From positions 12,636,576 through 12,700,575 of the forward strand of contig CM049309.1 of assembly GCA_026874595.1 (NCBI GenBank): a DNA stretch of 64,000 nt, written 5' to 3'. Positions 1 through 64,000 of this stretch are shown here, in pieces (within the stretch, counting starts at the first letter, position 1; the number at the start of each line of letters is the position of its first letter). The translations under genes and the position numbers were made by a program. The notes beneath the pieces are model-generated. The model saw only the letters and a list, made by a program, of their open reading frames with translations. It searched no databases and was not told where the DNA came from. Source of the stretch: Sipunculus nudus (taxonomy: Eukaryota; Annelida; Sipuncula; Golfingiida; Sipunculidae).

Positions 1-555
1 ATACCGAGCAAAAGATCAAAGGCTGTTGTTTGTAAATTTGATGAAATTCGGAATTTTATTTTTGGTTCACCAAAGGCAATATCAAAACGATAACGTTATC
101 AAAAATAACTCCGACAAATTCACATGGCATTTTTATGTGTGACATTGAAAGTTTGGGTTGAGTTACAGAATTAATCGGAAACGAGCTCGATATACAGGAA
201 AGCGGCCCTTCATTTTCATGTTCCGCTGCACTCTTGTAAAGGTCGAGGATTAATTTGCGGGAACAACTTTTGTTTTGCTATTGTACCGGTACAAAAGGCG
301 ACTTTGTCTGGGCCTGCGTATTCAGAAAATGAGATATCCTGGGTTCCATCATCTTTTAATAGTGGGCTTTATATTTTGCGGGATTTATTTCACGAGCCCC
401 GGGCAAAGACTGCAACAAAGTATTCATGTTCGGAAAGCGCGTACTGCATTGAGTCTCTATATATATAGTCTCTTGTATTGATAATGATGTAATCGCATGA
501 TTTTAATAAGGAAAATGGGTTACCAGAATTCGTAACAGACAGGATTTTCTCCATA

Positions 556-608
556 TTTATTGAAGATAAATGACAATAATATCTGACAGTGGGTTGAAAA
601 TATTTATT
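556..608 (-). terminator. Two polyadenylation signals for copy 1
   Basis: AATAAA occurs on the minus strand at 603-608 and 556-561, about 260 and 305 nt past the stop codon. The same pair sits at the same distance in the other units I checked (the nearer one is at 3932-3937 for copy 2). This supports each unit being its own transcription unit with a 3' UTR of about 0.3 kb. Confidence 0.5.
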
Positions 609-866
609 ATAATATAATTGAATATGTCAAGCAAATGAAATAGTTTATGTAGCAACAATATTGACATAACCCGCAACAATTGACATGTACACAAGGATGT
701 TAGAAAAATATTGTTATTTTAGTGGATTAACACGTAAAAGCACCGAGTGCACGAAATATAAGCAAATACATAGATGTAATATATTATAGCACCTAAAGAG
801 TTGTGAACCTAATATTTGAGGCGCTGCTCATTCAGCAGGCATGCAGAATGTCCTCTGGAAATTAGG

Positions 867-2069
867 TTAAAAAGGAAACTGTTTGTGAAACTGGCTGAGC
901 ACCGTCTGGGTCTGTTCAGCAGGGATGAGGGCCATGAGCTCCAGGGCATCTCTCATTCTCTTGAGCGTTTCATAGTTGTCTCTGCCCGTGACCGTCAGAG
1001 TGAAGACTTCCATATCACCTACTTTCCTCCGCTTGTCCATCGTGGCACCGACCTGCGGAGCCCCAAGACCTGTGGCTTTTCTTTTCTGGCCCGCCTGTGG
1101 ACCTGTCTTCTCATCCACCCGACGGTCCCGACCGGGGCAGGCACAGATTCGGACCTCGGCAGACTGTCTGCCCAGCACTTGCCCCTGGTGTTCCAGCGTG
1201 AAGATGACCCTGAGAGGGCGTCTGTTCAGTCCACCCACACAGGAAGAGAAGCACATGAACTGGTAGAGGTTGGTGATCCATTGGTTACCCGCTTGTGGTG
1301 TCTGATGAGGTATAATGACTGACTGCCTGCGCGTTTCGGGGTCCTCGTAGTACCGGGAAAGTGAATGTTCGCATCGCAGCAGGTGGGATGGTGCTGGGTG
1401 GTTGTCGTTGAACTCGCTTGTACCGGCGTGGTTTGGACATCGGCTGACGATCTCCTGCACGTGTTCCGGCTTGACATAGACAGGCATGGCTCTGATAATA
1501 CTACCGCTGGGAGGTGGGGTGGCCGTGGTGAACTTGACCGGACAAGCAGTGGCCATGCGCACATAGAGTTTATTCAGAGCTGGTGAGTAGGTCCAGTTGG
1601 CAGATTTGGTGTCCTTGACTGGCTGTTCGAAACCCACCTGGAAGCCGTAGTGGCCTGGGTATGCCGTGGCAGACGGCAGGGAGTGCTGCTGGCCTGTGGC
1701 TGGAGAAGCCTGCGGTGACGGGGTTGATGTGGTCAGGGGTACAGGGATTTGCGAGTCCGCTGCTCTGTCACTCATGTCACGTGACGCATCGGCTTCCAGC
1801 AGATCCTGTACGCTGTCGGCATGAGTGTAATATTCTTCGGGATCCGTTTTCAGAAGATCGGCGTGTGGACGGCCGAGAACTCCCTCCACGTCCGCCGTGC
1901 TGAGTGGACAGAGGTCCTCCGAATCCGAACCGGAACTGAGCGAATGCCACAGCTGATCCACCTCATCTGAAACATCGTATTGCTCGGTGTCTTCTAGCAC
2001 AAACGCTGGTTGCTTTTTCGCCGGGCTGGTTTGAAGATCGGTCCGATGATAGTGCATGAATGAAGTCAT
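867..2069 (-). CDS. p53: p53-family transcription factor, intronless copy 1 (intact, 400 aa)
   Basis: A sequence-specific transcription factor of the p53/p63/p73 family, expected to act in the nucleus as a tetramer. Residues 37-44 (VDQLWHSL) match the p53 activation/MDM2-binding box, with Val where human p53 has Phe19. Residues 87-91 (VQDLL) in acidic context resemble a second activation segment. The DNA-binding domain spans about 130-318. Zinc ligands are C211, H214, C273 and C277. K155, R283 and R307 match human DNA contacts K120, R248 and R273. R210, G280, R284 and R316 match hotspots R175, G245, R249 and R282. A bipartite basic signal (329-331 and 346-349) precedes the tetramerisation domain (353-380), and the tail ends at 400 without a SAM domain. 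The ATG at 2067-2069 is chosen because it is the first, sits about 80 bp below a TATA element and is kept in most copies. This copy has S209, shared only with copy 2. A human p53 gene has many introns; this reading frame has none. Confidence 0.97.
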   Translation of the reverse strand: MTSFMHYHRTDLQTSPAKKQPAFVLEDTEQYDVSDEVDQLWHSLSSGSDSEDLCPLSTADVEGVLGRPHADLLKTDPEEYYTHADSVQDLLEADASRDMSDRAADSQIPVPLTTSTPSPQASPATGQQHSLPSATAYPGHYGFQVGFEQPVKDTKSANWTYSPALNKLYVRMATACPVKFTTATPPPSGSIIRAMPVYVKPEHVQEIVSRCPNHAGTSEFNDNHPAPSHLLRCEHSLSRYYEDPETRRQSVIIPHQTPQAGNQWITNLYQFMCFSSCVGGLNRRPLRVIFTLEHQGQVLGRQSAEVRICACPGRDRRVDEKTGPQAGQKRKATGLGAPQVGATMDKRRKVGDMEVFTLTVTGRDNYETLKRMRDALELMALIPAEQTQTVLSQFHKQFPF

Positions 2070-2150
2070 TTTTTTTCAGTTATTGTGAATAGCAGGATGT
2101 TGTTATGTGAAAAGCGGCTAGGATACTGCAGTCAATTACGGGAAGTGGGT

Positions 2151-2159
2151 ATATATATT
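2151..2159 (-). promoter_or_regulatory. TATA-type core promoter, copy 1
   Basis: An alternating TA run (ATATATATA on the minus strand) begins 82 bp upstream of the ATG. A start site about 30 bp downstream would leave a 5' UTR of roughly 50 nt. The element recurs at nearly the same distance in all 20 units. No start site is proven. Confidence 0.55.
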
Positions 2160-2319
2160 TGACCATTGTATTTAAAGTGATAAGTATTTCCTGAAGAGCG
2201 GTCAGTTCATAAGGCGTTGTTGAGAGTAGATATCTAGCGCAGTCTGGTACTCGCCATCGCAGAACCTATTGGACACGGTCCATTACTCTCAACCCATCAC
2301 ATCACAGGGCGTGGGAGGA

Positions 2320-2511
2320 ATGATTAGGTCGGGGCGCCAGGTGCGGGCAGGGCCGTCCCGGTCCACTGCTTCTCACTCGGAACCGGGCAAGCCTCTTGAT
2401 TATCATTACCAGTGCTCAGTTAAGGGAAATGACTTCAAACAGAGACTTAAACAATCGCAATGTTCTTGCAGTGTAACAGTGAGAAGATTATTACTCGGAG
2501 ACCGCATTTAA
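2320..2511 (+). other. 63-codon ORF in the GC-rich block, plus strand, recurring in all units
   Basis: An ATG-initiated frame of 63 codons runs opposite to the p53-like gene, about 250-440 bp upstream of it. It stays open in all 20 units, with only a few replacements (for example copies 1, 2, 3 and 19). The product would be basic and Ser/Arg-rich, with no domain I recognise. The block is clearly richer in GC than the surrounding spacer. Most likely it is promoter DNA or a remnant of an older exon, and the open frame may be chance in young repeats. Confidence 0.2.
2385..2394. promoter_or_regulatory. Perfect p53 half-site upstream of copy 1
   Basis: GGGCAAGCCT fits the p53 half-site consensus RRRCWWGYYY at every position. 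It lies about 316 bp upstream of the ATG inside the GC-rich block. I see the same ten bases in the other units (for example 5715-5724 in unit 2). I found no good second half-site next to it, so a functional full site is not shown. Confidence 0.35.
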
Positions 2512-2844
2512 ATGCAGTTCAGAAAAGAGGGAAAATCGTCATTAATTCATGCAGTCGCTGGTATTTTGCCGCTGTTGCGCTGAAACTAAACAACCATTTT
2601 AATTATCCTAGTGATACATAATAAAATAACAACAATTCAGTACAAGTACACGTGATGAGGTTTATTTAACAGGCTTGACTCAAGTGAATAATATTTTTTT
2701 AATGAATTCTATTTGGGCCGAATCGAAAAAAAAATCTTATCTTCTCGTAATGATTTCTATTTTATGTGCTCCTCGATTAGAATTATAAAGGGTGACACTA
2801 AAATTACCATTTTAAACGTGAAATGTTCGAAAGATTTTTGGCTA

Positions 2845-2865
2845 TTTTTTTTTTTTTTTTTTTTT
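2845..2865 (+). repeat. Poly-T tract of unit 1 (length-variable in the array)
   Basis: A 21-nt T run followed by 'aggctcatgg'. Lengths elsewhere are 16 (unit 2), 26 (3), 18 (4), 21 (6), 25 (9), 12 (10), 21 (11), 25 (14), 12 (15) and 24 (19), with G-interrupted tracts in 16-18. Absent from units 5, 7, 8, 12 and 13. Read on the plus strand, T-run plus AG resembles a splice acceptor; read on the minus strand it is a poly-A run about 1.3 kb beyond the stop codon of the next gene. Neither role is supported further. Confidence 0.9.
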
Positions 2866-4195
2866 AGGCTCATGGATTGACAGCGGTGATGTCATCCGGT
2901 GTGGGCGAAGTAACCAGCGACTAGGATAACCGCTGAGGAAACAGCTTCCGTAACTGACAGGCTTTAATAAATTAACAACTATATTTGTTCTCTTCTCACA
3001 CACACATTCACGCGCGCACATGCAGTGAATCAATTTTTAATATATTAATGCGCAAGATAAGAATAAAGAGATATATACATATCACCAATTAACATATATA
3101 TTTTACTGCATTGTCGCTGAATATACGTCAGGTGAAGACATCATGCAGTTCTTACATCAAACATTGCCGGCAGTCTGACCGACACGCACATGCATGTAAA
3201 AGTTTAAACAAACCAAAATGAGTCGTCAAGAAAAATCGACAAGTAACATCCAAAAATGCAGTTACCAATAAAAATACATTTTAACCAATACCTGCAGAAA
3301 TAAAAAAAAATTCCTAACCGCTTTGATGTAATACCGAGCAAAAGATCAAAGGCTGTTGTTTGTAAATTTGATGAAATTCGGAATTTTATTTTTGGTTCAC
3401 CAAAGGCAATATCAAAACGATAACGTTATCAAAAATAACTCCGACAAATTCACATGGCATTTTTATGTGTGACATTGAAAGTTTGGGTTGAGTTACAGAA
3501 TTAATCGGAAACGAGCTCGATATACAGGAAAGCGGCCCTTCATTTTCATGTTCCGCTGCACTCTTGTAAAGGCCGAGGATTAATTTGCGGGAACAACTTT
3601 TGTTTTGCTATTGTACCGGTACAAAAGGCGACTTTGTCTGGGCCTGCGTATTCAGAAAATGAGATATCCTGGGTTCCATCATCTTTTAATAGTGGGCTTT
3701 ATATTTTGCGGGATTAATTTCACGAGCCCCGGCAAAGACTGCAACAAAGTATACATGTTCGGAAAGCGCGTACTGCATTGAGTCTCTATATATATAGTCT
3801 CTTGTATTGATAATGATGTAATCGCATGATTTTATTAAGGAAAATGGGTTACCAGAATTCGTAACAGACAGGATTTTCTCCATATTTATTGAAGATAAAT
3901 GACAATAATATCTGACAGTGGGTTGAAAATATTTATTATAATATAATTGAATATGTCAAGCAAATGAAATAGTTTATGTGGCAACAATATTGACATAACC
4001 CGCAACAATTTACATGTACACAAGGATGTTAGAAAAATATTGTTATTTTAGTGGATCAACACGTAAAAGCACCGAGTGCACGAAATATAAGCAAATACAT
4101 AGATGTAATATATTATAGCACCTAAAGAGTTGTGAACCTAATATTTGAGGCGCTGCTCATGCAGCAGGCATGCAGAATGTCCTCTGGAAATTAGG

Positions 4196-5398
4196 TTAAA
4201 AAGGAAACTGTTTGTGAAACTGGCCGAGCACCGTCTGGGTCTGTTCAGCAGGGATGAGGGCCATGAGCTCCAGGGCATCTCTCATTCTCTTGAGCGTTTC
4301 ATAGTTGTCTCTGCCCGTGACCGTCAGAGTGAAGACTTCCATATCACCTACTTTCCTCCGCTTGTCCATCGTGGCACCGACCTGCGGAGCCCCAAGACCT
4401 GTGGCTTTTCTTTTCTGGCCCGCCTGTGGACCTGTCTTCTCATCCACCCGACGGTCCCGACCGGGGCAGGCACAGATTCGGACCTCGGCAGACTGTCTGC
4501 CCAGCACTTGCCCCTGGTGTTCCAGCGTGAAGATGACCCTGAGAGGGCGTCTGTTGAGTCCACCCACACAGGAAGAGAAGCACATGAACTGGTAGAGGTT
4601 GGTGATCCATTGGTTACCCGCTTGTGGTGTCTGATGAGGTATAATGACTGACTGCCTGCGCGTTTCGGGGTCCTCGTAGTACCGGGAAAGTGAATGTTCG
4701 CATCGCAGCAGGTGGGATGGTGCTGGGTGGTTGTCGTTGAACTCGCTTGTACCGGCGTGGTTTGGACATCGGCTGACGATCTTCTGCACGTGTTCCGGCT
4801 TGACATAGACAGGCATGGCTCTGATACTACTACCGCTGGGAGGTGGGGTGGCCGTGGTGAACTTGACCGGACAAGCAGTGGCCATGCGCACATAGAGTTT
4901 ATTCAGAGCTGGTGAGTAGGTCCAGTTGGCAGATTTGGTGTCCTTGACTGGCTGTTCGAAACCCACTTGGAAGCCGTAGTGGCCTGGGTATGCCGTGGCA
5001 GACGGCAGGGAGTGCTGCTGGCCTGTGGCTGGAGAAGCCTGCGGTGACGGGGTTGATGTGGTCAGGGGTACAGGGATTTGCGAGTCCGCTGCTCTGTCAC
5101 TCATGTCACGTGACGCATCGGCTTCCAGCAGATCCTGTACGCTGTCGGCATGAGTGTAATATTCTTCGGGATCCGTTTTCAGAAGATCGGCGTGTGGACG
5201 GCCGAGAACTCCCTCCACGTCCGCCGTGCTGAGTGGACAGAGGTCCTCCGAATCCGAACCGGAACTGAGCGAATGCCACAGCTGATCCACCTCATCTGAA
5301 ACATCGTATTGCTCGGTGTCTTCTAGCACAAACGCTGGTTGCTTTTTCGCCGGGCTGGTTTTAAGATCGGTCCGATGATAGTGCATGAATGAAGTCAT
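4196..5398 (-). CDS. p53: p53-family transcription factor, copy 2 (intact, 400 aa)
   Basis: Full domain set as in copy 1. Private replacements are Q13K, I191S, E206K and S392G. E206K lies a few residues before the first zinc ligand C211, in the region matching human loop L2, so it could alter zinc-loop stability or charge. All zinc ligands and hotspot-equivalent residues are kept. It shares S209 with copy 1, which places the two in one subgroup at the left of the window. Confidence 0.96.
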   Translation of the reverse strand: MTSFMHYHRTDLKTSPAKKQPAFVLEDTEQYDVSDEVDQLWHSLSSGSDSEDLCPLSTADVEGVLGRPHADLLKTDPEEYYTHADSVQDLLEADASRDMSDRAADSQIPVPLTTSTPSPQASPATGQQHSLPSATAYPGHYGFQVGFEQPVKDTKSANWTYSPALNKLYVRMATACPVKFTTATPPPSGSSIRAMPVYVKPEHVQKIVSRCPNHAGTSEFNDNHPAPSHLLRCEHSLSRYYEDPETRRQSVIIPHQTPQAGNQWITNLYQFMCFSSCVGGLNRRPLRVIFTLEHQGQVLGRQSAEVRICACPGRDRRVDEKTGPQAGQKRKATGLGAPQVGATMDKRRKVGDMEVFTLTVTGRDNYETLKRMRDALELMALIPAEQTQTVLGQFHKQFPF

Positions 5399-5478
5399 TT
5401 TTTTTCAGTTATTGTGAATAGCAGGATGTTGTTATGTGAAAAGCGGCTCGGATACTGCAGTCAATTACGGGAAGTGGG

Positions 5479-5487
5479 TATATATAT
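5479..5487 (-). promoter_or_regulatory. TATA-type core promoter, copy 2
   Basis: The TA run starts 81 bp upstream of the ATG. Just beyond it the sequence reads 'aaatatttttctg' instead of 'aagtatttcctg', a variant shared only with unit 19. Confidence 0.5.
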
Positions 5488-7524
5488 TTGACCATTGTAT
5501 TTAAAGTGATAAATATTTTTCTGAAGAGCGGTCAGTTCATAAGGCGTTGTTGAGAGTAGATATCTAGCGCAGTCTGGTACTCGCCATCGCAGAACCTATT
5601 GGACACGGTCCATTACTCTCAACCCATCACATCACAGGGCGTGGGAGGAATGATTAGGTCGGGGCGCCCGGTGCGGGCAGGGCCGTCCCGGTCCACTGCT
5701 TCTAACTCGGAACCGGGCAAGCCTCTTGATTATCATTACCAGTGCTCAGTTAAGGGAAATGACTTCAAACGGAGACTTAAACAATCGCAATGTTCTTGCA
5801 GTGTAACAGTGAGAAGATTATTACTCGGAGACCGCATTTAAATGCAGTTCAGAAAAGAGGGACAATCATCATTAATTCATGCAGTCCCTGGTATTTTGCC
5901 GCTGTTGCGCTGAAACTAAACAACCATTTTAATTATCCTAGTGATACATAATAAAATAACAACAATTCAGTACAAGTACACGTGATGAGGTTCATTTAAC
6001 AGGTTTGACTCAAGTGAATAATATTTTTTTTATGAATTCTATTTGGGCCGAATCGAAAAAAAAAATCTTATCTTCTCGTAATGATTTCTATTTTATGTGC
6101 TCCTCGATTAGAATTATAAAGGTTGACACTAAAATTACCATTTTAAACGTAAAATGTTCGAAAGATTTTTGGCTATTTTTTTTTTTTTTTTAGGCTCATG
6201 GATTGACAGCGGTGATGTCATCCGGTGTGGGCGAAGTAACCAGCGACTAGGATAACCGCTGAGGAAACAGCTTCCGTAACTGACAGGCTTTAATAAATTA
6301 ACAACTATATTTGTTCTCTTCTCACACACACATTCACGCGCGCACATGCAGTGAATCAATTTTTAATATATTAATGCGCAAGATAAGAATAAAGAGATAT
6401 ATACATATCACCAATTAACATATATATTTTACTGCAGTGTCGCTGAATATACGTCAGGTGAAGACATCATGCAGTTCTTACATCAAACATTGCCGGCAGT
6501 CTGACCGACACGCACATGCATGTAAAAGTTTAAACAAACCAAAATGAGTCGTCAAGAAAAATCGACAAGTAACATCCAAAAATGCAGTTACCAATAAAAA
6601 TACAATTTAACCAATACCTGCAGAAATAAAAAAAAATTTCCTAACCGCTTTGATGTTATACCGAGCAAAAGATCAAAGGCTGTTGTTTGTAAATTTGATG
6701 AAATTCGGAATTTTATTTTTGGTTCACCAGAGGCCATATCAAAACAATAACGTTATCAAAAATAACTCCGACAAATTCACATGGCATTTTTATGTGTGAC
6801 ATTGAAAGTTTGGGTTGAGTTATAGAATTAATCGGAAACGAGCTCGATATACAGGAAAGCGGCCCTTCATTTTCATGTTCCGCTGCACTCTTGTAAAGGC
6901 CGAGGATTAATTTGCGGGAACAACTTTTGTTTTGCTATTGTACCGGTACAAAAGGCGACTTTGTCTGGGCCTGCGTATTCAGAAAATGAAATATCCTGGG
7001 TTCCATCATCTTTTAATTGTGGGCTTTATATTTTGCGGGATTTATTTCACGAGCCCCGGGCAAAGACTGCAACAAAGTATTCATGTTCGGAAAGCGCGTA
7101 CTGCATTGAGTCTCTATATATACAGTCTCCTGTATTGATAATGATGTAATCGCATGATTTTAATAAGGAAAATGGGTTACCAGAATTCGTAACAGACAGG
7201 ATTTTCTCCATATTTATTGAAGATAAATGACAATAATATCTGACAGTGGGTTGAAAATATTTATTATAATATAATTGAATATGTCAAGCAAATGAAATAG
7301 TTTATGTAGCAACAATATTGACATAACCGCAACAATTTACATGTACACAAGGATGTTAGAAAAATATTGTTATTTTAGTGGATCAACACGTAAAAGCACC
7401 GAGTGCACGAAATATATAAGCAAATACATAGATGTAATATATTATAGCACCTAAAGAGTTGTGAACCTAATATTTGAGGCGCTGCTCATGCAGCAGGCAT
7501 GCAGAATGTCCTCTGGAAATTAGG

Positions 7525-8727
7525 TTAAAAAGGAAACTGTTTGTGAAACTGGCTGAGCACCGTCTGGGTCTGTTCAGCAGGGATGAGGGCCATGAGCTCC
7601 AGGGCATCTCTCATTCTCTTGAGCGTTTCATAGTTGTCTCTGCCCGTGACCGTCAGAGTGAAGACTTCCATATCACCTACTTTCCTCCGCTTGTCCATCG
7701 TGGCACCGACCTGCGGAGCCCCAAGACCTGTGGCTTTTCTTTTCTGGCCCGCCTGTGGACCTGTCTTCTCATCCACCCGACGGTCCCGACCGGGGCAGGC
7801 ACAGATTCGGACCTCGGCAGACTGTCTGCCCAGCACTTGCCCCTGGTGTTCCAGCGTGAAGATGACCCTGAGAGGGCGTCTGTTGAGTCCACCCACACAG
7901 GAAGAGAAGCACATGAACTGGTAGAGGTTGGTGATCCATTGGTTACCCGCTTGTGGTGTCTGATGAGGTATAATGACTGACTGCCTGCGCGTTTCGGGGT
8001 CCTCGTAGTACCGGGAAAGTGAATGTTCGCATCGCAGCAGGTGGGATGGTGCTGGGTGGTTGTCGTTGAACTCGCTTGTACCGGCGTGGTTTGGACATCG
8101 GGTGACGATCTCCTGCACGTGTTCCGGCTTGACATAGACAGGCATGGCTCTGATAATACTACCGCTGGGAGGTGGGGTGGCCGTGGTGAACTTGACCGGA
8201 CAAGCAGTGGCCATGCGCACATAGAGTTTATTCAGAGCTGGTGAGTAGGTCCAGTTGGCAGATTTGGTGTCCTTGACTGGCTGTTCGAAACCCACCTGGA
8301 AGCCGTAGTGGCCTGGGTATGCCGTGGCAGACGGCAGGGAGTGCTGCTGGCCTGTGGCTGGAGAAGCCTGCGGTGACGGGGTTGATGTGGTCAGGGGTAC
8401 AGGGATTTGCGAGTCCGCTGCTCTGTCACTCATGTCACGTGACGCATCGGCTTCCAGCAGATCCTGTACGCTGTCGGCATGAGTGTAATATTCTTCGGGA
8501 TCCGTTTTCAGAAGATCGGCGTGTGGACGGCCGAGAACTCCCTCCACGTCCGCCGTGCTGAATGGACAGAGGTCCTCCGAATCCGAACCGGAACTGAGCG
8601 AATGCCACAGCTGATCCACCTCATCTGAAACATCGTATTGCTCGGTGTCTTCTAGCACAAACGCTGGTTGCTTTTTCGCCGGGCTGGTTTGAAGATCGGT
8701 CCGATGATAGTGCATGAATGAAGTCAT
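7525..8727 (-). CDS. p53: p53-family transcription factor, copy 3 (intact, 400 aa)
   Basis: Intact, with the common T209 state. The only private replacement seen is L56F, in the acidic linker between the two activation-type segments. The DNA-binding, nuclear-localisation and tetramerisation regions are unchanged, so this is a reasonable stand-in for the array consensus. Confidence 0.97.
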   Translation of the reverse strand: MTSFMHYHRTDLQTSPAKKQPAFVLEDTEQYDVSDEVDQLWHSLSSGSDSEDLCPFSTADVEGVLGRPHADLLKTDPEEYYTHADSVQDLLEADASRDMSDRAADSQIPVPLTTSTPSPQASPATGQQHSLPSATAYPGHYGFQVGFEQPVKDTKSANWTYSPALNKLYVRMATACPVKFTTATPPPSGSIIRAMPVYVKPEHVQEIVTRCPNHAGTSEFNDNHPAPSHLLRCEHSLSRYYEDPETRRQSVIIPHQTPQAGNQWITNLYQFMCFSSCVGGLNRRPLRVIFTLEHQGQVLGRQSAEVRICACPGRDRRVDEKTGPQAGQKRKATGLGAPQVGATMDKRRKVGDMEVFTLTVTGRDNYETLKRMRDALELMALIPAEQTQTVLSQFHKQFPF

Positions 8728-10845: not shown

Positions 10846-12048
10846 TTAAAAAGGAAACTGTTTGTGAAACTGGCTGAGCACCGTCTGGGTCTGTTCAGCA
10901 GGGATGAGGGCCATGAGCTCCAGGGCATCTCTCATTCTCTTGAGCGTTTCATAGTTGTCTCTGCCCGTGACCGTCAGAGTGAAGACTTCCATATCACCTA
11001 CTTTCCTCCGCTTGTCCATCGTGGCACCGACCTGCGGAGCCCCAAGACCTGTGGCTTTTCTTTTCTGGCCCGCCTGTGGACCTGTCTTCTCATCCACCCG
11101 ACGGTCCCGACCGGGGCAGGCACAGATTCGGACCTCGGCAGACTGTCTGCCCAGCACTTGCCCCTGGTGTTCCAGCGTGAAGATGACCCTGAGCGGGCGT
11201 CTGTTGAGTCCACCCACACAGGAAGAGAAGCACATGAACTGGTAGAGGTTGGTGATCCATTGGTTACCCGCTTGTGGTGTCTGATGAGGTATAATGACTG
11301 ACTGCCTGCGCGTTTCGGGGTCCTCGTAGTACCGGGAAAGTGAATGTTCGCATCGCAGCAGGTGGGATGGTGCTGGGTGATTGTCGTTGAACTCGCTTGT
11401 ACCGGCGTGGTTTGGACATCGGGTGACGATCTCCTGCACGTGTTCCGGCTTGACATAGACAGGCATGGCTCTGATAATACTACCGCTGGGAGGTGGGGTG
11501 GCCGTGGTGAACTTGACCGGACAAGCAGTGGCCATGCGCACATAGAGTTTATTCAGAGCTGGTGAGTAGGTCCAGTTGGCAGATTTGGTGTCCTTGACTG
11601 GCTGTTCGAAACCCACCTGGAAGCCGTAGTGGCCTGGGTATGCCGTGGCAGACGGCAGGGAGTGCTGCTGGCCTGTGGCTGGAGAAGCCTGCGGTGACGG
11701 GGTTGATGTGGTCAGGGGTACAGGGATTTGCGAGTCCGCTGCTCTGTCACTCATGTCACGTGACGCATCGGCTTCCAGCAGATCCTGTACGCTGTCGGCA
11801 TGAGTGTAATATTCTTCGGGATCCGTTTTCAGAAGATCGGCGTGTGGACGGCCGAGAACTCCCTCCACGTCCCCCGTGCTGAGTGGACAGAGGTCCTCCG
11901 AATCCGAACCGGAACTGAGCGTATGCCACAGCTGATCCACCTCATCTGAAACATCGTATTGCTCGGTGTCGTCTAGCACAAACGCTGGTTGTTTTTTCGC
12001 CGGGCTGGTTTGAAGATCGGTCCGATGATAGTGCATGAATGAAGTCAT
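10846..12048 (-). CDS. p53: p53-family transcription factor, copy 4 (intact, 400 aa)
   Basis: Intact. Private replacements E26D, S43T and A59G all lie in the N-terminal activation region. S43T falls inside the TAD box (VDQLWHTL) between the key Trp41 and Leu44, which are kept. The DNA-binding and tetramerisation domains match the consensus. Confidence 0.96.
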   Translation of the reverse strand: MTSFMHYHRTDLQTSPAKKQPAFVLDDTEQYDVSDEVDQLWHTLSSGSDSEDLCPLSTGDVEGVLGRPHADLLKTDPEEYYTHADSVQDLLEADASRDMSDRAADSQIPVPLTTSTPSPQASPATGQQHSLPSATAYPGHYGFQVGFEQPVKDTKSANWTYSPALNKLYVRMATACPVKFTTATPPPSGSIIRAMPVYVKPEHVQEIVTRCPNHAGTSEFNDNHPAPSHLLRCEHSLSRYYEDPETRRQSVIIPHQTPQAGNQWITNLYQFMCFSSCVGGLNRRPLRVIFTLEHQGQVLGRQSAEVRICACPGRDRRVDEKTGPQAGQKRKATGLGAPQVGATMDKRRKVGDMEVFTLTVTGRDNYETLKRMRDALELMALIPAEQTQTVLSQFHKQFPF

Positions 12049-14173: not shown

Positions 14174-15376
14174 TTAAAAAGGAAACTGTTTGTGAAACTG
14201 GCTGAGCACCGTCTGGGTCTGTTCAGCAGGGATGAGGGCCATGAGCTCCAGGGCATCTCTCATTCTCTTGAGCGTTTCATAGTTGTCTCTGCCCGTGACC
14301 GTCAGAGTGAAGACTTCCATATCACCTACTTTCCTCCGCTTGTCCATCGTGGCACCGACCTGCGGAGCCCCAAGACCTGTGGCTTTTCTTTTCTGGCCCG
14401 CCTGTGGACCTGTCTTCTCATCCACCCGACGGTCCCGACCGGGGCAGGCACAGATTCGGACCTCGGCAGACTGTCTGCCCAGCACTTGCCCCTGGTGTTC
14501 CAGCGTGAAGATGACCCTGAGAGGGCGTCTGTTGAGTCCACCCACACAGGAAGAGAAGCACATGAACTGGTAGAGGTTGGTGATCCATTGGTTACCCGCT
14601 TGTGGTGTCTGATGAGGTATAATGACTGACTGCCTGCGCGTTTCGGGGTCCTCGTAGTACCGGGAAAGTGAATGTTCGCATCGCAGCAGGTGGGATGGTG
14701 CTGGGTGGTTGTCGTTGAACTCGCTTGTACCGGCGTGGTTTGGACATCGGGTGACGATCTCCTGCACGTGTTCCGGCTTGACATAGACAGGCATGGCTCT
14801 GATAATACTACCGCTGGGAGGTGGGGTGGCCGTGGTGAACTTGACCGGACAACCAGTGGCCATGCGCACATAGAGTTTATTCAGAGCTGGTGAGTAGGTC
14901 CAGTTGGCAGATTTGGTGTCCTTGACTGGCTGTTCGAAACCCACCTGGAAGCCGTAGTGGCCTGGGTATGCCGTGGCAGACGGCAGGGAGTGCTGCTGGC
15001 CTGTGGCTGGAGAAGCCTGCGGTGACGGGGTTGATGTGGTCAGGGGTACAGGGATTTGCGAGTCCGCTGCTCTGTCACTCATGTCACGTGACGCATCGGC
15101 TTCCAGCAGATCCTGTACGCTGTCGGCATGAGTGTAATATTCTTCGGGATCCGTTTTCAGAAGATCGGCGTGTGGACGGCCGAGAACTCCCTCCACGTCC
15201 GCCGTGCTGAGTGGACAGAGGTCCTCCGAATCCGAACCGGAACTGAGCGAATGCCACAGCTGATCCACCTCATCTGAAACATCGTATTGCTCGGTGTCTT
15301 CCAGCACAAACGCTGGTTGCTTTTTCGCCGGGCTGGTTTGAAGATCGGTCCGATGATAGTGCATGAATGAAGTCAT
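14174..15376 (-). CDS. p53: p53-family transcription factor, copy 5 (intact, 400 aa)
   Basis: Intact. It carries A175G next to C176 in the DNA-binding domain, a change shared with copies 7 and 12. The upstream spacer is the shortened form, but the deletion starts about 720 bp upstream of the ATG, so the TATA element and the half-site block remain. Confidence 0.96.
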   Translation of the reverse strand: MTSFMHYHRTDLQTSPAKKQPAFVLEDTEQYDVSDEVDQLWHSLSSGSDSEDLCPLSTADVEGVLGRPHADLLKTDPEEYYTHADSVQDLLEADASRDMSDRAADSQIPVPLTTSTPSPQASPATGQQHSLPSATAYPGHYGFQVGFEQPVKDTKSANWTYSPALNKLYVRMATGCPVKFTTATPPPSGSIIRAMPVYVKPEHVQEIVTRCPNHAGTSEFNDNHPAPSHLLRCEHSLSRYYEDPETRRQSVIIPHQTPQAGNQWITNLYQFMCFSSCVGGLNRRPLRVIFTLEHQGQVLGRQSAEVRICACPGRDRRVDEKTGPQAGQKRKATGLGAPQVGATMDKRRKVGDMEVFTLTVTGRDNYETLKRMRDALELMALIPAEQTQTVLSQFHKQFPF

Positions 15377-46698: not shown

Positions 46699-46778
46699 TT
46701 TTTTTCAGTTATTGTGAATAGCAGGATGTTGTTATGTGAAAAGCGGCTCGGATACTGCAGTCAATTACGGGAAGTGGG

Positions 46779-46787
46779 TATATATAT
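46779..46787 (-). promoter_or_regulatory. TATA-type core promoter, copy 15
   Basis: Standard TA run, 81 bp upstream of the ATG. Confidence 0.45.
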
Positions 46788-48818
46788 TTGACCATTGTAT
46801 TTAAAGTGATAAGTATTTCCTGAAGAGCGGTCAGTTCATAAGGCGTTGTTGAGAGTAGATATCTAGCGCAGTCTGGTAGTCGCCATCGCAGAACCTATTG
46901 GACACGGTCCATTACTCTCAACCCATCACATCACAGGGCGTGGGAGGAATGATTAGGTCGGGGCGCCCGGTGCGGGCAGGGCCGTCCCGGTCCACTGCTT
47001 CTCACTCGGAACCGGGCAAGCCTCTTGATTATCATTACCAGTGCTCAGTTAAGGGAAATGACTTCAAACGGAGACTTAAACAATCGCAATGTTCTTGCAG
47101 TGTAACAGTGAGAAGATTATTACTCGGAGACCGCATTTAAATGCAGTTCAGAAAAGAGGGACAATCATCATTAATTCATGCAGTCGCTGGTATTTTGCCG
47201 CTGTTGCGCTGAAACTAAACAACCATTTTAATTATCCTAGTGATACATAATAAAATAACAACAATTCAGTACAAGTACACGTGATGAGGTTTATTTAACA
47301 GCTTTGACTCAAGTGAATAATATTTTTTAATGAATTCTATTTGGGCCGAATCGAAAAAAAAATCTTATCTTCTCGTAATGATTTCTATTTTATGTGCTCC
47401 TCGATTAGAATTATAAAGGGTGACACTAAAATTACCATTTTAAACGTAAAATGTTCGAAAGATTTTTGGCTATGTTTTTTTTTTTTCAGGCTCATGGATT
47501 GACAGCGGTGATGTCATCCGGTGTGGGCGAAGTAACCAGCGACTAGGATAACCGCTGAGGAAACAGCTTGCGTAACTGACAGGCTTTAAAATATTAACAA
47601 CTATATTTGTTCTCTTCTCACACACACATTCACGCGCGCACATGCAGTGAATCAATTTTTAATATATTAATGCGCAAGATAAGAATAAAGAGATATATAC
47701 ATATCACCAATTAACATATATATTTTACTGCAGTGTCGCTGAATATACGTCAGGTGAAGACATCATGCAGTTCTTACATCAAACATTGCCGGCAGTCTGA
47801 CCGACACGCACATGCATGTAAAAGTTTAAACAAACCAAAATGAGTCGTCAAGAAAAATCGACAAGTAACATCCAAAAATGCAGTTACCAATAAAAATACA
47901 TTTTAACCAATACCTGCAGAAATAAAAAAAAATTCCTAACCGCTTTGATGTAATACCGAGCAAAAGATCAAAGGCTGTTGTTTGTAAATTTGATGAAATT
48001 CGGAATTTTATTTTTGGTTCACCAAAGGCAATATCAAAACGATAACGTTATCAAAAATAACTCCGACAAATTCACATGGCATTTTTATGTGTGACATTGA
48101 AAGTTTGGGTTGAGTTACAGAATTAATCGGAAACGAGCTCGATATACAGGAAAGCGGCCCTTCATTTTCATGTTCCGCTGCACTCTTGTAAAGGCCGAGG
48201 ATTAATTTGCGGGAACAACTTTTGTTTTGCTATTGTACCGGTACAAAAGGCGACTTTGTCTGGGCTTGCGTATTCAGAAAATGAGATATCCTGGGTTCCA
48301 TCATCTTTTAATAGTGGGCTTTATATTTTGCGGGATTTATTTCACGAGCCCCGGGCAAAGACTGCAACAAAGTATTCATGTTCGGAAAGCGCGTACTGCA
48401 TTGAGTCTCTATATATATAGTCTCCTGTATTGATAATGATGTAATCGCATGATTTTAATAAGGAAAACGGGTTACCAGAATTCATAACAGACAGGATTTT
48501 CTCCATATTTATTGAAGATAAATGACAATAATATCTGACAGTGGGTTGAAAATATTTATTATAATATAATTGAATATGTCAAGCAAATGAAATAGTTTAT
48601 GTAGCAACAATATTGACATAACCCGCAACAATTTACATGTACACAAGGATGTTAGAAAAATATTGTTATTTTAGTGGATCAACACGTAAAAGCACCGAGT
48701 GCACGAAATATAAGCAAATACATAGATGTAATATATTTTAGCACCTAAAGAGTTGTGAACCTAATATTTGAGGCGCTGCTCATGCAGCAGGCATGCAGAA
48801 TGTCCTCTGGAAATTAGG

Positions 48819-50020
48819 TTAAAAAGGAAACTGTTTGTGAAACTGGCTGAGCAACGTCTGGGTCTGTTCAGCAGGGATGAGGGCCATGAGCTCCAGGGCA
48901 TCTCTCATTCTCTTGAGCGTTTCATAGTTGTCTCTGCCCGTGACCGTCAGAGTGAAGACTTCCATATCACCTACTTTCCTCCGCTTGTCCATCGTGGCAC
49001 CGACCTGCGGAGCCCCAAGACCTGTGGCTTTTCTTTTCTGGCCCGCCTGTGGACCTGTCTTCTCATCCACCCGACGGTCCCGACCGGGGCAGGCACAGAT
49101 TCGGACCTCGGCAGACTGTCTGCCCAGCACTTGCCCCTGGTGTTCCAGCGTGAAGATGACCCTGAGAGGGCGTCTGTTGAGTCCACCCACACAGGAAGAG
49201 AAGCACATGAACTGGTAGAGGTTGGTGATCCATTGGTTACCCGCTTGTGGTGTCTGATGAGGTATAATGACTGACTGCCTGCGCGTTTCGGGGTCCTCGT
49301 AGTACCGGGAAAGTGAATGTTCGCATCGCAGCAGGTGGGATGGTGCTGGGTGGTTGTCGTTGAACTCGCTTGTACCGGCGTGGTTTGGACATCGGGTGAC
49401 GATCTCCTGCACGTGTTCCGGCTTGACATAGACAGGCATGGCTCTGATAATACTACCGCTGGGAGGTGGGGTGGCCGTGGTGAACTTGACCGGACAAGCA
49501 GTGGCCATGCGCACATAGAGTTTATTCAGAGCTGGTGAGTAGGTCCAGTTGGCAGATTTGGTGTCCTTGACTGGCTGTTCGAAACCCACCTGGAAGCCGT
49601 AGTGGCCTGGGTATGCCGTGGCAGACGGCAGGGAGTGCTGCTGGCCTGTGGCTGGAGAAGCCTGCGGTGACGGGGTTGATGTGGTCAGGGGTACAGGGAT
49701 TTGCGAGTCCGCTGCTCTGTCACTCATGTCACGGACGCATCGGCTTCCAGCAGATCCTGTACGCTGTCGGCATGAGTGTAATATTCTTCGGGATCCGTTT
49801 TCAGAAGATCGGCGTGTGGACGGCCGAGAACTCCCTCCACGTCCGCCGTGCTGAGTGGACAGAGGTCCTCCGAATCCGAACCGGAACTGAGCGAATGCCA
49901 CAGCTGATCCACCTCATCTGAAACATCGTATTGCTCGGTGTCTTCTAGCACAAACGCTGGTTGCTTTTTCGCCGGGCTGGTTTGATGATCGGTCCGATGA
50001 TAGTGCATGAATGAAGTCAT
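48819..50020 (-). pseudogene. p53: p53-like copy 16, frameshifted at codon 96-97
   Basis: Same missing base (near 49732), L12H and V390L as copy 11. It yields a 98-residue activation-region frame and, from codon 99, a separate DNA-binding/tetramerisation frame. Its right flank is the original context of this allele; copy 11 is the recombinant. Confidence 0.94.
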
Positions 50021-50100
50021 TTTTTTTCAGTTATTGTGAATAGCAGGATGTTGTTATGTGAAAAGCGGCTCGGATACTGCAGTCAATTACGGGAAGTGGG

Positions 50101-50109
50101 TATATATAT
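50101..50109 (-). promoter_or_regulatory. TATA-type core promoter, copy 16
   Basis: Standard TA run, 81 bp upstream of the ATG. Confidence 0.45.
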
Positions 50110-52146
50110 TTGACCATTGTATTTAAAGTGATAAGTATTTCCTGAAGAGCGGTCAGTTCATAAGGCGTTGTTGAGAGTAGATATCTAGCGCAGTCTGGTA
50201 CTCGCCATCGCAGAACCTATTGGACACGGTCCATTACTCTCAACCCATCACATCACAGGGCGTGGGAGGAATGATTAGGTCGGGGCGCCCGGTGCGGGCA
50301 GGGCCGTCCCGGTCCACTGCTTCTCACTCGGAACCGGGCAAGCCTCTTGATTATCATTACCAGTGCTCAGTTAAGGGAAATGACTTCAAACGGAGACTTA
50401 AACAATCGCAATGTTCTTGCAGTGTAACAGTGAGAAGATTATTACTCGGAGACCGCATTTAAATGCAGTTCAGAAAAGAGGGACAATCATCATTAATTCA
50501 TGCAGTCGCTGGTATTTTGCCGCTGTTGCGCTGAAACTAAACAACCATTTTAATTATCCTAGTGATACATAATAAAATAACAACAATTCAGTACAAGTAC
50601 ACGTGATGAGGTTTATTTAACAGGTTTGACTCAAGTGAATAATATTTTTTTAATGAATTCTATTTGGGCCGAATCGAAAAATAAATCTTATCTTCTCGTA
50701 ATGTTTTCTATTTTATGTGCTCCTCGATTAGAATTATAAAGGGTGACACTAAAATTACCATTTTAAACGTAAAATGTTCGAAAGATTTTTGGCTATGTTT
50801 TTTTGTTTTTTTTTAGGCTCATGGATTGACAGCGGTGATGTCATCCGGTGTGGGCGAAGTAACCAGCGACTAGGATAACCGCTGAGGAAACAGCTTCCGT
50901 AACTGACAGGCTTTAATAAATTAACAACTATATTTGTTCTCTTCTCACACACACATTCACGCGCGCACATGCAGTGAATCAATTTTTAATATATTAATGC
51001 GCAAGATAAGAATAAAGATATATATACATATTACCAATTAACATATATATTTTACTGCAGTGTCGCTGAATATACGTCAGGTGAAGACATCATGCAGTTC
51101 TTACATCAAACATTGCCGGCAGTCTGACCGACACGCACATGCATGTAAAAGTTTAAACAAACCAAAATGAGTCGTCAAGAAAAAATCGACAAGTAACATC
51201 CAAAAATGCAGTTACCAATAAAAATACATTTTAACCAATACCTGCAGAAATAAAAAAAATTTCCTAACCGCTTTGATGTAATACCGAGCAAAAGATCAAA
51301 GGCTGTTGTTTGTAAATTTGATGAAATTCGGAATTTTATTTTTGGTTCACCAAAGGCAATATCAAAACGATAACGTTATCAAAAATAACTCCGACAAATT
51401 CACATGGCATTTTTATGTGTGACATTGAAAGTTTGGGTTGAGTTACAGAATTAATCGGAAACGAGCTCGATATACAGGAAAGCGGCCCTTCATTTTCATG
51501 TTCCGCTGCACTCTTTTAAAGGCCGAGGATTAATTTGCGGGAACAACTTTTGTTTTGCTATTGTACCGGTACAAAAGGCGACTTTGTCTGGGCCTGCGTA
51601 TTCAGAAAATGAGATATCCTGGGTTCCATCATCTTTTAATAGTGGGCTTTATATTTTGCGGGATTTATTTCACGAGCCCCGGGCAAAGACTGCAACAAAG
51701 TATTCATGTTCGGAAAGCGCGTACTGCATTGAGTCTCTATATATATAGTCTCTTGTATTGATAATGATGTAATCGCATGATTTTAATAAGGAAAATGGGT
51801 TACCAGAATTCGTTACACACAGGATTTTCTCCATATTTATTGAAGATAAATGACAATAATATCTGACAGTGGGTTGAAAATATTTATTATAATATAATTG
51901 AATATGTCAAGCAAATGAAATAGTTTATGTAGCAACAATATTGACATAACCCGCAACAATTTACATGTACACAAGGATGTTAGAAAAATATTGTTATTTT
52001 AGTGGATCAACACGTAAAAGCACCGAGTGCACGAAATATAAGCAAATACATAGATGTAATATATTATAGCACCTAAAGAGTTGTGAACCTAATATTTGAG
52101 GCGCTGCTCATGCAGCAGGCATGCAGAATGTCCTCTGGAAATTAGG

Positions 52147-58805: not shown

Positions 58806-60008
58806 TTAAAAAGGAAACTGTTTGTGAAACTGGCTGAGCACCGTCTGGGTCTGTTCAGCAGGGATGAGGGCCATGAGCTCCAGGGCATCTCTCATTCTCT
58901 TGAGCGTTTCATAGTTGTCTCTGCCCGTGACCGTCAGAGTGAAGACTTCCATATCACCTACTTTCCTCCGCTTGTCCATCGTGGCACCGACCTGCGGAGC
59001 CCCAAGACCTGTGGCTTTTCTTTTCTGGCCCGCCTGTGGACCTGTCTTCTCATCCACCCGACGGTCCCGACCGGGGCAGGCACAGATTCGGACCTCGGCA
59101 GACTGTCTGCCCAGCACTTGCCCCAGGTGTTCCAGCGTGAAGATGACCCTGAGAGGGCGTCTGTTCAGTCCACCCACACAGGAAGAGAAGCACATGAACT
59201 GGTAGAGGTTGGTGATCCATTGGTTACCCGCTTGTGGTGTCTGATGAGGTATAATGACTGACTGCCTGCGCGTTTCGGGGTCCTCGTAGTACCGGGAAAG
59301 TGAATGTTCGCATCGCAGCAGGTGGGATGGTGCTGGGTGGTTGTCGTTGAACTCGCTTGTACCGGCGTGGTTTGGACATCGGGTGACGATCTCCTGCACG
59401 TGTTCCGGCTTGACATAGACAGGCATGGCTCTGATAATACTACCGCTGGGAGGTGGGGTGGCCGTGGTGAACTTGACCGGACAAGCAGTGGCCATGCGCA
59501 CATAGAGTTTATTCAGAGCTGGTGAGTAGGTCCAGTTGGCAGATTTGGTGTCCTTGACTGGCTGTTCGAAACCCACCTGGAAGCAGTAGTGGCCTGGGTA
59601 TGCCGTGGCAGACGGCAGGGAGTGCTGCTGGCCTGTGGCTGGAGAAGCCTGCGGTGACGGGGTTGATGTGGTCAGGGGTACAGGGATTTGCGAGTCCGCT
59701 GCTCTGTCACTCATGTCACGTGACGCATCGGCTTCCAGCAGATCCTGTACGCTGTCGGCATGAGTGTAATATTCTTCGGGATCCGTTTTCAGAAGATCGG
59801 CGTGTGGACGGCCGAGAACTCCCTCCACGTCCGCCGTGCTGAGTGGACAGAGGTCCTCCGAATCCGAACCGGAACTGAGCGAATGCCACAGCTGATCCAC
59901 CTCATCTGAAACATCGTATTGCTCGGTGTCTTCTAGCACAAACGCTGGTTGCTTTTTCGCCGGGCTGGTTTGAAGATCGGTCCGATGATAGTGCATGAAT
60001 GAAGTCAT
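58806..60008 (-). CDS. p53: p53-family transcription factor, copy 19 (intact, 400 aa)
   Basis: Open over the full length. Private replacements are G142C, at the start of the DNA-binding domain (the 'YGF' motif, where Gly is usual in the family), and Q295L in a loop between strands. G142C could harm folding. Zinc ligands and hotspot-equivalent residues are intact. Confidence 0.95.
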   Translation of the reverse strand: MTSFMHYHRTDLQTSPAKKQPAFVLEDTEQYDVSDEVDQLWHSLSSGSDSEDLCPLSTADVEGVLGRPHADLLKTDPEEYYTHADSVQDLLEADASRDMSDRAADSQIPVPLTTSTPSPQASPATGQQHSLPSATAYPGHYCFQVGFEQPVKDTKSANWTYSPALNKLYVRMATACPVKFTTATPPPSGSIIRAMPVYVKPEHVQEIVTRCPNHAGTSEFNDNHPAPSHLLRCEHSLSRYYEDPETRRQSVIIPHQTPQAGNQWITNLYQFMCFSSCVGGLNRRPLRVIFTLEHLGQVLGRQSAEVRICACPGRDRRVDEKTGPQAGQKRKATGLGAPQVGATMDKRRKVGDMEVFTLTVTGRDNYETLKRMRDALELMALIPAEQTQTVLSQFHKQFPF

Positions 60009-62141: not shown

Positions 62142-63344
62142 TTAAAAAGGAAACTGTTTGTGAAACTGGCTGAGCACCGTCTGGGTCTGTTCAGCAGGGA
62201 TGAGGGCCATGAGCTCCAGGGCATCTCTCATTCTCTTGAGCGTTTCATAGTTGTCTCTGCCCGTGACCGTCAGAGTGAAGACTTCCATATCACCTACTTT
62301 CCTCCGCTTGTCCATCGTGGCACCGACCTGCGGAGCCCCAAGACCTGTGGCTTTTCTTTTCTGGCCCGCCTGTGGACCTGTCTTCTCATCCACCCGACGG
62401 TCCCGACCGGGGCAGGCACAGATTCGGACCTCGGCAGACTGTCTGCCCAGCACTTGCCCCTGGTGTTCCAGCGTGAAGATGACCCTGAGAGGGCGTCTGT
62501 TCAGTCCACCCACACAGGAAGAGAAGCACATGAACTGGTAGAGGTTGGTGATCCATTGGTTACCCGCTTGTGGTGTCTGATGAGATATAATGACTGACTG
62601 CCTGCGCGTTTCGGGGTCCTCGTAGTACCGGGAAAGTGAATGTTCGCATCGCAGCAGGTGGGATGGTGCTGGGTGGTTGTCGTTGAACTCGCTTGTACCG
62701 GCGTGGTTTGGACATCGGGTGACGATCTCCTGCACGTTGTCCGGTTTGACATAGACAGGCATGGCTCTGATAATACTACCACTGGGAGGTGGGGTGGCCG
62801 TGGTGAACTTGACCGGACAAGCATTGGCCATGCGCACATAGAGTTTATTCAGAGCTGGTGAGTAGGTCCAGTTGGCAGATTTGGTGTCCTTGACTGGCTG
62901 TTCGAAACCCACCTGGAAGCCGTAGTGGCCTGGGTATGCCGTGGCAGACGGCAGGTAGTGCTGCTGACCTGTGGCTGGAGAAGCCTGCGGTGACGGGGTT
63001 GATGTGGTCAGGGGTACAGGGATTTGCGAGTCCGCTGCTCTGTCACTCATGTCACGTGACGCATTGGCTTCCAGCAGATCCTGTACGCTGTCGGCATGAG
63101 TGTAATATTCTTCGGGATCCGTTTTCAGAAGATCGGCGTGTGGACGGCCGAGAACTCCCTCCACGTCCGCCGTGCTGAGTGGACAGAGGTCCTCCGAATC
63201 CGAACCGGAACTGAGCGAATGCCACAGCTGATCCACCTCATCTGAAACACCGTATTGCTCGGTGTCTTCTAGCACAAACGCTGGTTGCTTTTTCGCCGGG
63301 CTGGTTTGAAGATCGGTCCGATGATAGTGCATGAATGAAGTCAT
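62142..63344 (-). CDS. p53: p53-family transcription factor, copy 20 (intact, 400 aa)
   Basis: Intact but the most diverged of the full-length copies. Private replacements are D32G, D94N, S130Y, T174N, E202D, H203N and P254S, against about three silent changes. T174N and P254S lie in the DNA-binding domain; D32G and D94N reduce the acidity of the activation region. All zinc ligands, DNA contacts and the tetramerisation domain are kept. The replacement-to-silent ratio looks close to that of an unconstrained sequence. Confidence 0.95.
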   Translation of the reverse strand: MTSFMHYHRTDLQTSPAKKQPAFVLEDTEQYGVSDEVDQLWHSLSSGSDSEDLCPLSTADVEGVLGRPHADLLKTDPEEYYTHADSVQDLLEANASRDMSDRAADSQIPVPLTTSTPSPQASPATGQQHYLPSATAYPGHYGFQVGFEQPVKDTKSANWTYSPALNKLYVRMANACPVKFTTATPPPSGSIIRAMPVYVKPDNVQEIVTRCPNHAGTSEFNDNHPAPSHLLRCEHSLSRYYEDPETRRQSVIISHQTPQAGNQWITNLYQFMCFSSCVGGLNRRPLRVIFTLEHQGQVLGRQSAEVRICACPGRDRRVDEKTGPQAGQKRKATGLGAPQVGATMDKRRKVGDMEVFTLTVTGRDNYETLKRMRDALELMALIPAEQTQTVLSQFHKQFPF

Positions 63345-63424
63345 TTTTTTTCAGTTATTGTGAATAGCAGGATGTTGTTATGTGAAAAGCGGCTCGGATA
63401 CTGCAGTCAATTACGGGAAGTGGG

Positions 63425-63433
63425 TATATATAT
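63425..63433 (-). promoter_or_regulatory. TATA-type core promoter, copy 20
   Basis: Standard TA run, 81 bp upstream of the ATG. Confidence 0.45.
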
Positions 63434-64000
63434 TTGACCATTGTATTTAAAGTGATAAGTATTTCCTGAAGAGCGGTCAGTTCATAAGGCGTTGTTGAGA
63501 GTAGATATCTAGCGCAGTCTGGTACTCGCCATCGCAGAACCTATTGGACACGGTCCATTACTCTCAACCGATCACATCACAGGGCGTGGGAGGAATGATA
63601 AGGTCGGGGCGCCCGGTGCGGGCAGGGCCGTCCCGGTCCACTGCTTCTCACTCGGAACCGGGCAAGCCTCTTGATTATCATTACCAGTGCTCAGTTAAGG
63701 GAAATGACTTCAAACGGAGACTTAAACAATCGCAATGTTCTTGCAGTGTAACAGTGAGAAGATTATTACTCGGAGACCGCATTTAAATGCAGTTCAGAAA
63801 AGAGGGACAATCATCATTAATTCATGCAGTCGCTGGTATTTTGCCGCTGTTGCGCTGAAACTAAACAACCATTTTAATTATCCTAGTGATACATAATAAA
63901 ATAACAACAATTCAGTACAAGTACACGTGATGAGGTTTATTTAACAGGTTTGACTCAAGTGAATGATATTTTTTTAATGAATTCTATTTGGGCCGAATCG

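Follow-up and report, generated by a model that had tools for sequence, protein, structure and literature searches.

The 64,000-nucleotide stretch of Sipunculus nudus DNA analysed here (the window; assembly GCA_026874595.1, contig CM049309.1, positions 12,636,576 to 12,700,575 of the forward strand) is understood with high confidence as the interior of a real macrosatellite of intronless p53-family genes. The array runs head to tail over 459 kb, from C4:12,526,057 to 12,985,444, and wholly contains the window (G000:C4:12,636,576-12,700,575); the genome searched (G000) comprises 1.43 Gb in 153 contigs, labels such as C2, C4, C5, C15 and C60 denoting contigs of the assembly and L-numbers extracted loci. 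Taken as a whole, our reading is that a retro-derived p53 macrosatellite would act as an expressed, high-copy source of a short p53-like protein, with negligible selection on the single copy. We lean towards it, if only slightly; that the array is expressed to an extent relevant for p53 dosage appears, judged from sequence, an evenly balanced proposition.

The tandem arrangement of at least 20 intronless p53-family genes, proposed from the window by a sequence-only reading, is borne out on the scale of the genome. The window has 20 p53 start positions, and a 36-mer from the p53 C-terminal coding sequence finds 138 matches genome-wide (at most three mismatches), all on the reverse strand, with none on the forward strand and none for the reversed control; the first 100 of the 138 places, those listed, are all on C4. 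In an independent count by the tetramerisation domain (TET), 150 of 158 candidates were scored and 146 matched, of which 137 lie in the array and 9 outside it. Along the entire window, a 3,329-bp reference unit aligns at 98.4-100% identity, short units aligning as two pieces, and with a mean pairwise difference of 0.35-0.99% by distance bin the array shows the kilobase units, single orientation, head-to-tail order and homogenisation of a macrosatellite. The uniform unit of ∼3.3 kb first supposed is true of most units (∼3.33 kb) but not of all, since a ∼2.94-kb form, in which ∼390 bp of spacer are missing, also occurs in the window, and forms of ∼3.07 and ∼4.01 kb are found elsewhere in the array. 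The ∼4.01-kb form is represented by a pair of units that close the array on the right, its gene-upstream side (C4:12974000-12985444; L004, L006), and that carry a ∼670-bp internal duplication in the p53 coding sequence (CDS). The array ends lie at C4:12,526,057 on the left (L003 position 4057) and 12,985,444 on the right (L006 position 1544), beyond which the unit matches short diverged spacer pieces only. The large-scale features of the window are as follows.

1-64000, reverse strand: macrosatellite interior (unit-to-window alignment, 36-mer census, array ends)
2070-5398, reverse strand: reference unit of 3,329 bp, with p53 CDS (5398-4196), 3' region with AATAAA signals, spacer and the next gene's promoter (alignment)
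18283-34611, no strand assigned: higher-order block, first copy, 16,329 bp; second copy at 34135-50463 (+15,852), zero differences

The pattern of array growth is that of unequal exchange on several scales. Besides the exact block, ten pairs of sampled units show at most 0.06% difference or none at all, at spacings of 9,983, 15,852 and ∼124,136 bp, and among the first 100 36-mer places, those listed, runs of equal spacing recur at ∼15.85, 16.4, 121 and 137 kb. Both the 16,329-bp block duplicated without difference and the (nearly) identical units ∼124 kb apart could also reflect an assembly artefact, in which graph looping raised the copy number or a small array was enlarged in silico, and local copy number at the exact repeat does depend on correct assembly because the block recurs unchanged at +15,852 bp. 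For the array at large we consider such an artefact very improbable: 52 of the 60 full sampled units are distinct over the reference columns, there are several unit-length classes, lesions occur at many places, and both array ends are joined to non-array sequence.

Regarding the sequence around the array, diverged spacer pieces (76-85%) were found only beside the array ends among the loci compared. Outside the left end, L003 1418-4050 holds such array-spacer fragments (76-85%), one of them inverted, together with several recurring stretches of the ggtggcgcca type. The idea that the spacer is a dispersed transposon was considered and is not supported, the 40 candidates scored, of 141 obtained with a 1-kb spacer query, all being in the array. 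A 720-codon open frame that resembles, as judged by eye, the reverse transcriptase of a LINE (long interspersed nuclear element) is located ∼7 kb left of the array (L002 4535-6697; C4:12,516,534-12,518,696).

The coding capacity of the array is high without being universal. The copies in the window, with the promoter of the first, read as follows.

867-2069, reverse strand: p53 CDS copy 1, intact, 400 amino acids (P0001)
2070-2170, reverse strand: proximal promoter of copy 1, TATA element consensus AAATATATATACCC, 91 bp before the ATG
4196-5398, reverse strand: copy 2, intact
7525-8727, reverse strand: copy 3, intact
10846-12048, reverse strand: copy 4, intact
14174-15376, reverse strand: copy 5, intact
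17114-18316, reverse strand: copy 6, intact
20445-21646, reverse strand: copy 7, frameshift near start, stop after 72 amino acids
23383-24585, reverse strand: copy 8, intact
26323-27525, reverse strand: copy 9, open, first ATG changed to AAG, 396-amino-acid frame from the next Met
29654-30846, reverse strand: copy 10, frameshift in the DNA-binding domain (DBD), stop after 280 amino acids
32967-34168, reverse strand: copy 11, frameshift, stop after 98 amino acids
36297-37498, reverse strand: copy 12, frameshift, stop after 72 amino acids
39235-40437, reverse strand: copy 13, intact
42175-43377, reverse strand: copy 14, open, first ATG changed to AAG
45506-46698, reverse strand: copy 15, frameshift, stop after 280 amino acids
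48819-50020, reverse strand: copy 16, frameshift, stop after 98 amino acids
52147-53348, reverse strand: copy 17, frameshift, stop after 98 amino acids
55475-56677, reverse strand: copy 18, intact
58806-60008, reverse strand: copy 19, intact
62142-63344, reverse strand: copy 20, intact

Thus 13 of the 20 copies are open over 400 codons (2 of the 13 without the first ATG) and 7 are broken. Among 66 units sampled from five array stretches, the 400-codon frame is open in 40, of which 38 have the ATG, and broken in 26; a stricter rule on the last residues leaves 37 of the 66 intact. A full-length protein search, in which 104 of 185 candidates were scored, found 92 without and 12 with an internal stop, and these 92 intact copies (of 138) are a lower bound because at least one intact sampled unit is absent from the 104 scored. 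In the TET search, 41 of the 137 array rows sit in frames shorter than 400 codons, and the longer ones can still be frameshifted. The proposal that each unit encodes a p53-like protein therefore stands for ∼60-67% of the copies (40/66 sampled; at least 92/138) and not for the broken remainder.

The unit consensus encodes a p53-family protein of 400 amino acids (P0001), in which Pfam finds only P53 (PF00870; 218.3 bits, E 1.1e-64, cut-off 27) and P53_tetramer (PF07710; 46.5 bits, cut-off 20.7), with double homeodomain and SAM both absent; an activation-type W-containing box and basic stretches are also present. With human p53 numbering for residue equivalents, the W box, the four zinc ligands and the R248-, R273- and R280-equivalents are conserved in 63-64 of 64 sampled units, and the R249-, R282- and R283-equivalents in 61-63 of 64, exceptions being mostly gaps. 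With W box, zinc ligands and most DNA-contact residues kept, the predicted intact product looks like a complete activator. Its closest solved relative is the DBD chain 7pc6 (E 5e-96), which ranks ahead of mammalian p63, p73 and p53 in PDB and is the p53 homologue of Alvinella pompejana (PMC8901663). The available parts of the sources describe annelid and mollusc p53 genes as activation domain (TAD)-DBD-TET-SAM (PMC8901663, PMC7531772), so that the array product departs from its lophotrochozoan p53/p63/p73 relatives in being without SAM. Each unit had been expected to carry its own TATA element and AATAAA signals, and the wider sample agrees: a TATATA core occurs in 59 of 60 full units (the exact consensus element in 42 of 60), and AATAAA at +258 and +305 after the stop in all 60. 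An antisense 168-amino-acid TTG frame in each unit, opposite the DBD, was taken as a by-product, no search having been made with it, and no structured RNA reached Rfam gathering scores in window positions 1-7000.

Outside the array, as surveyed with a 65-amino-acid DBD piece of Alvinella as query and with the TET search, the genome holds seven intronless p53 genes on C5, one on C2, and an intron-bearing one on C15. The C15 gene is the intron-containing gene of parental type, present in the same genome, that a retrocopy origin calls for. One of its exons is 81% identical to Alvinella p53 over 63 amino acids, and its match falls into five pieces, between which lie introns bordered by ag/gt. In the DBD-TET region, to which the junction comparison applies, it has four splice junctions at which the array open reading frame (ORF) has none; single 400-codon frames in the array span activation box to tetramerisation domain, ruling out introns concealed in the units, and the genes are indeed intronless as first read. 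The C15 activation-domain exons were not found within L116 plus L007 (20 kb). A SAM-like exon lies ∼9 kb further on, near 52535555 (C15:52535001-52545000, L115), followed by a long run of N; it scores 22.2 bits for SAM_2 (cut-off 20.5), and its best PDB matches are the SAM domains of p63/p73, weakly (E 0.026 and above). On C5, four genes form a small tandem at 29.05-29.07 Mb (C5:29051545-29071780, L012-L015) and three are located at 15.98-16.01 Mb (C5:15980797-16008169, L009-L011), L011 having two in-frame stops; the six intact C5 frames measure 388-435 amino acids, and the single intronless C2 gene 380 (C2:22964500-22970000, L016).

These relatives indicate considerable age. By blastn, the array unit matches the C5 and C2 loci in coding sequence only, and the flanks of C4 and C5 have no mutual match. 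An unrooted tree of the DBD-TET region joins the C15 gene to Alvinella (100); separate lineages are formed by the array, by the six intact C5 genes and by C2, whose position is weak (63). The synonymous divergence (dS) between array consensus and the six C5 genes is 2.1-2.7, near saturation, with a ratio of nonsynonymous to synonymous divergence (dN/dS) of 0.15-0.19, from which the array lineage was long kept functional; dS is saturated against C2 and against the C15 gene, for which no ratio is given, and the 15 pairs of C5 genes show dN/dS of 0.30-0.46 in 14 cases and 0.77 in one. With silent sites near saturation relative to C5 and eight intronless members outside the array, the intronless lineage is, on sequence grounds, not a recent capture. 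If the C15 tetramerisation exon is read on beyond its last border, it would terminate in ...TKQ-stop; the C5 genes terminate in ...QYKQ- or QFKQ-stop. We infer that the founding transcript had a short 3' end of this kind.

The CpG content bears on the suggestion that the array is a silenced satellite. The observed-to-expected CpG ratio is 0.74 in the array CDS and 1.06 in the spacer; in the six intact C5 p53 CDSs it is 0.12-0.16. Elsewhere, the C15 locus has 0.30, L002 0.29, and four 4-kb samples 0.30, 0.35, 0.64 and 0.73. The CpG-high zone extends ∼2.5-3 kb past both array ends, and the diverged spacer pieces outside the left end retain 25 of 35 array CpGs. The array region would thus have carried little germline methylation over a long period, as inferred from few samples in a mosaic genome, and silencing in the sense of long-term germline methylation is not supported, given how well CpG is retained.

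The sequence of events that we favour would begin with a spliced p53 transcript that was reverse-transcribed long ago and then gained a promoter. One such retrogene would have been multiplied, together with promoter and polyA signals, through unequal exchange and conversion. Its intact copies (∼60-67%) would be transcribed as independent intronless genes from a little-methylated block, making the locus a high-copy, copy-number-variable source of a short, SAM-less p53-like protein. Selection on each copy would be too weak to see, since no single copy matters, and broken copies would spread alongside intact ones.

A number of results weigh against this reading and are gathered here. With respect to origin, the array lineage is probably old and retro-derived, and the basis for this is the missing introns, not a poly(A) tract or a target-site duplication, both of which have probably been eroded given the near-saturated dS; the unrooted tree, moreover, carries no test of a common origin for the three intronless lineages. 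In a different account, the array descends from an ancient p53 paralogue whose introns disappeared by another route before it was duplicated at the DNA level, for which the saturated silent sites relative to C15 and a retro origin argued from intron absence instead of retroposition hallmarks leave some room. All four C15 junctions are, however, missing in C4 and C5 lineages that lack matching flanks, which is the expected outcome of retroposition and makes this account improbable.

With respect to selection within the array, the variants counted in 64 units (two of the 66 rows, end units with the misaligning internal duplication, were left out) comprise 90 nonsynonymous, 42 synonymous and 7 stop changes in the CDS, where 149, 59 and 10 are expected from the spacer spectrum. 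The within-array ratio of nonsynonymous to synonymous polymorphism (pN/pS) of 0.84 (p 0.38) looks neutral, by region it is 0.70 in the N-terminus, 0.84 in the DBD and 1.46 in the C-terminus, none significant, and stop variants are not depleted relative to silent changes. Diversity differs little between codon positions 1, 2 and 3 (0.0064, 0.0071, 0.0078). At 40/64, the intact share is compatible with a rough neutral expectation of 0.52-0.55 (p 0.10-0.26). Some lesions are shared by several units (Q295* by 4, Y31* by 3, the loss of one base at CDS position 287 by 5), so amplification ignores ORF integrity. Since the intact share fits neutrality and lesions multiply with the units, the intact frames do not testify to selection at present; a good gene that was recently amplified would leave such frames behind, and per-copy selection on the array protein is probably negligible.

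The same results are those expected of the main rival, a neutral or selfish macrosatellite whose size is driven by unequal exchange and whose p53 genes are passengers, silent or contributing nothing; broken units duplicated inside the exact blocks likewise fit it. Several observations limit its appeal. Long purifying selection preceded the amplification. Every variant class, the silent one included, is rarer in the CDS than the spacer predicts (observed/expected 0.60-0.72; diversity 0.0071 in CDS compared to 0.0092 in spacer), a pattern that either weak constraint or a lower mutation rate could produce. The retained CpG speaks against a methylated block, and promoter and polyA signals are kept in nearly all sampled units, albeit as expected either way at ∼1% divergence. 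We regard the neutral array as a serious alternative of lesser probability.

The CpG contrast itself is not clean, given ratios of 0.61 in the C15 exons, 0.46 in the C2 gene and as much as 0.73 in random samples, and array CpG transitions are in small excess, at 1.5 times other C/G transitions per site (0.135 vs 0.090; p 0.03). Finally, no p53-type response element with at most three mismatches occurs in the consensus spacer, a result that is little informative given 0.55 expected by chance. The same scan upstream of the other intronless p53 genes gave a 1-mismatch site (L010) and a 2-mismatch site (L016), without a chance estimate.

Two further proposals concern what an expressed array would do. 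In the first, it would be a p53-dose-setting macrosatellite with more than 90 intact, individually promoted, little-methylated genes, whose length tunes the damage/apoptosis response and changes by unequal exchange between individuals or somatic cells, selection acting on the whole array; this extension of our reading is tentative. In the second, the response would be dampened by array proteins that oligomerise among themselves or with the p53 that bears SAM, and truncated forms would be added by the frameshifted units. The intact tetramerisation domain, the product without SAM and the many truncated copies (26/66) suit such a modulator or dominant-negative reservoir. The complete-activator look of a product retaining its W box, zinc ligands and most DNA-contact residues does not, and we rate it as unlikely.

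Among known systems, there exist architectural analogies to human macrosatellites. D4Z4 is a ∼3.3-kb head-to-tail unit with an intronless transcription-factor ORF; it is G+C-rich and requires a distal polyA signal. RS447/USP17 is a tandem array of intronless protein-coding units for a deubiquitinase. The parallel to D4Z4/DUX4 (4q35/10q26) that was drawn at the outset is supported by the similar unit size, the tandem order and the intronless transcription-factor ORF; the differences are a homeobox there and p53 here, 44% G+C in the window, CpG retained, and AATAAA in each sampled unit. Homology to DUX4 is not supported, as Pfam finds no double homeodomain in P0001, and USP17 differs in being neither transcription factor nor tumour suppressor. 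Total DUX4 copy number is given as 200-685 in HapMap individuals and mean diploid USP17 copy number as >100, and D4Z4 contraction accompanies local methylation loss, according to the available part of PMC4063668; DUX4 has been termed a retrogene (PMC3836709, in the part available).

Among p53 expansions, the elephant TP53RTG genes resemble the array as p53 retrocopies beside a canonical gene. The evidence on them fits a single retroposition with repeated segmental duplication afterwards (PMC5061548), and TP53-R9 is truncated in the DBD (PMC9935553; both sources in the parts available). The elephant has ∼20 copies in large segmental duplications, whereas here ∼138 occur in one array of 3.3-kb units, about two thirds of them full length. 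Shared retrogene descent of the two appears implausible, the closest relative among solved structures being an annelid p53, ahead of mammalian p63, p73 and p53. Another invertebrate expansion is known from Diaphanosoma dubium (23) and D. celebensis (12 p53-like members), by tandem and dispersed duplication, with far fewer copies and no uniform macrosatellite described in the available part of the source (PMC9926121). The ∼138 copies far exceed those of any animal in the literature searched (elephant ∼20, water flea 23), and no p53 macrosatellite is named among the matches listed in open-licence PubMed Central literature, which leaves preprints and most subscription papers outside.

Annelid erythrocruorin-linker and molluscan haemocyanin families had no match in the genome, a negative of little weight because the scan registered no hit of any kind. 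The assembly also contains bacterial sequence. Nine bacterial COX1 genes of near-equal score (577-578-amino-acid frames) lie on C60, C61, C62, C66, C72, C74, C75 and C89 (two on C89), that of C60 being at most 58% identical to database loci in the best 80 matches listed; these contigs perhaps represent an associated bacterium in several strains. Contig C123 (112 kb, L005) is bacterial, with what seem to be nucleoside-salvage genes, hmgA and a cytochrome oxidase; it may come from an associate of Endozoicomonas type.

Lastly, p53 dose is normally under tight control, and the elephant expansion is debated as a cancer defence. With ∼138 tandem p53 copies, most of them able to encode the full protein, Sipunculus nudus provides a natural experiment on p53 dosage, and likewise on the tolerance of a macrosatellite whose gene does harm when overabundant. 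The system would allow selection at array level, silencing and effects of copy number to be measured directly. Even if it were inert, the array would be a clear case of a tumour-suppressor retrogene in satellite-like evolution.

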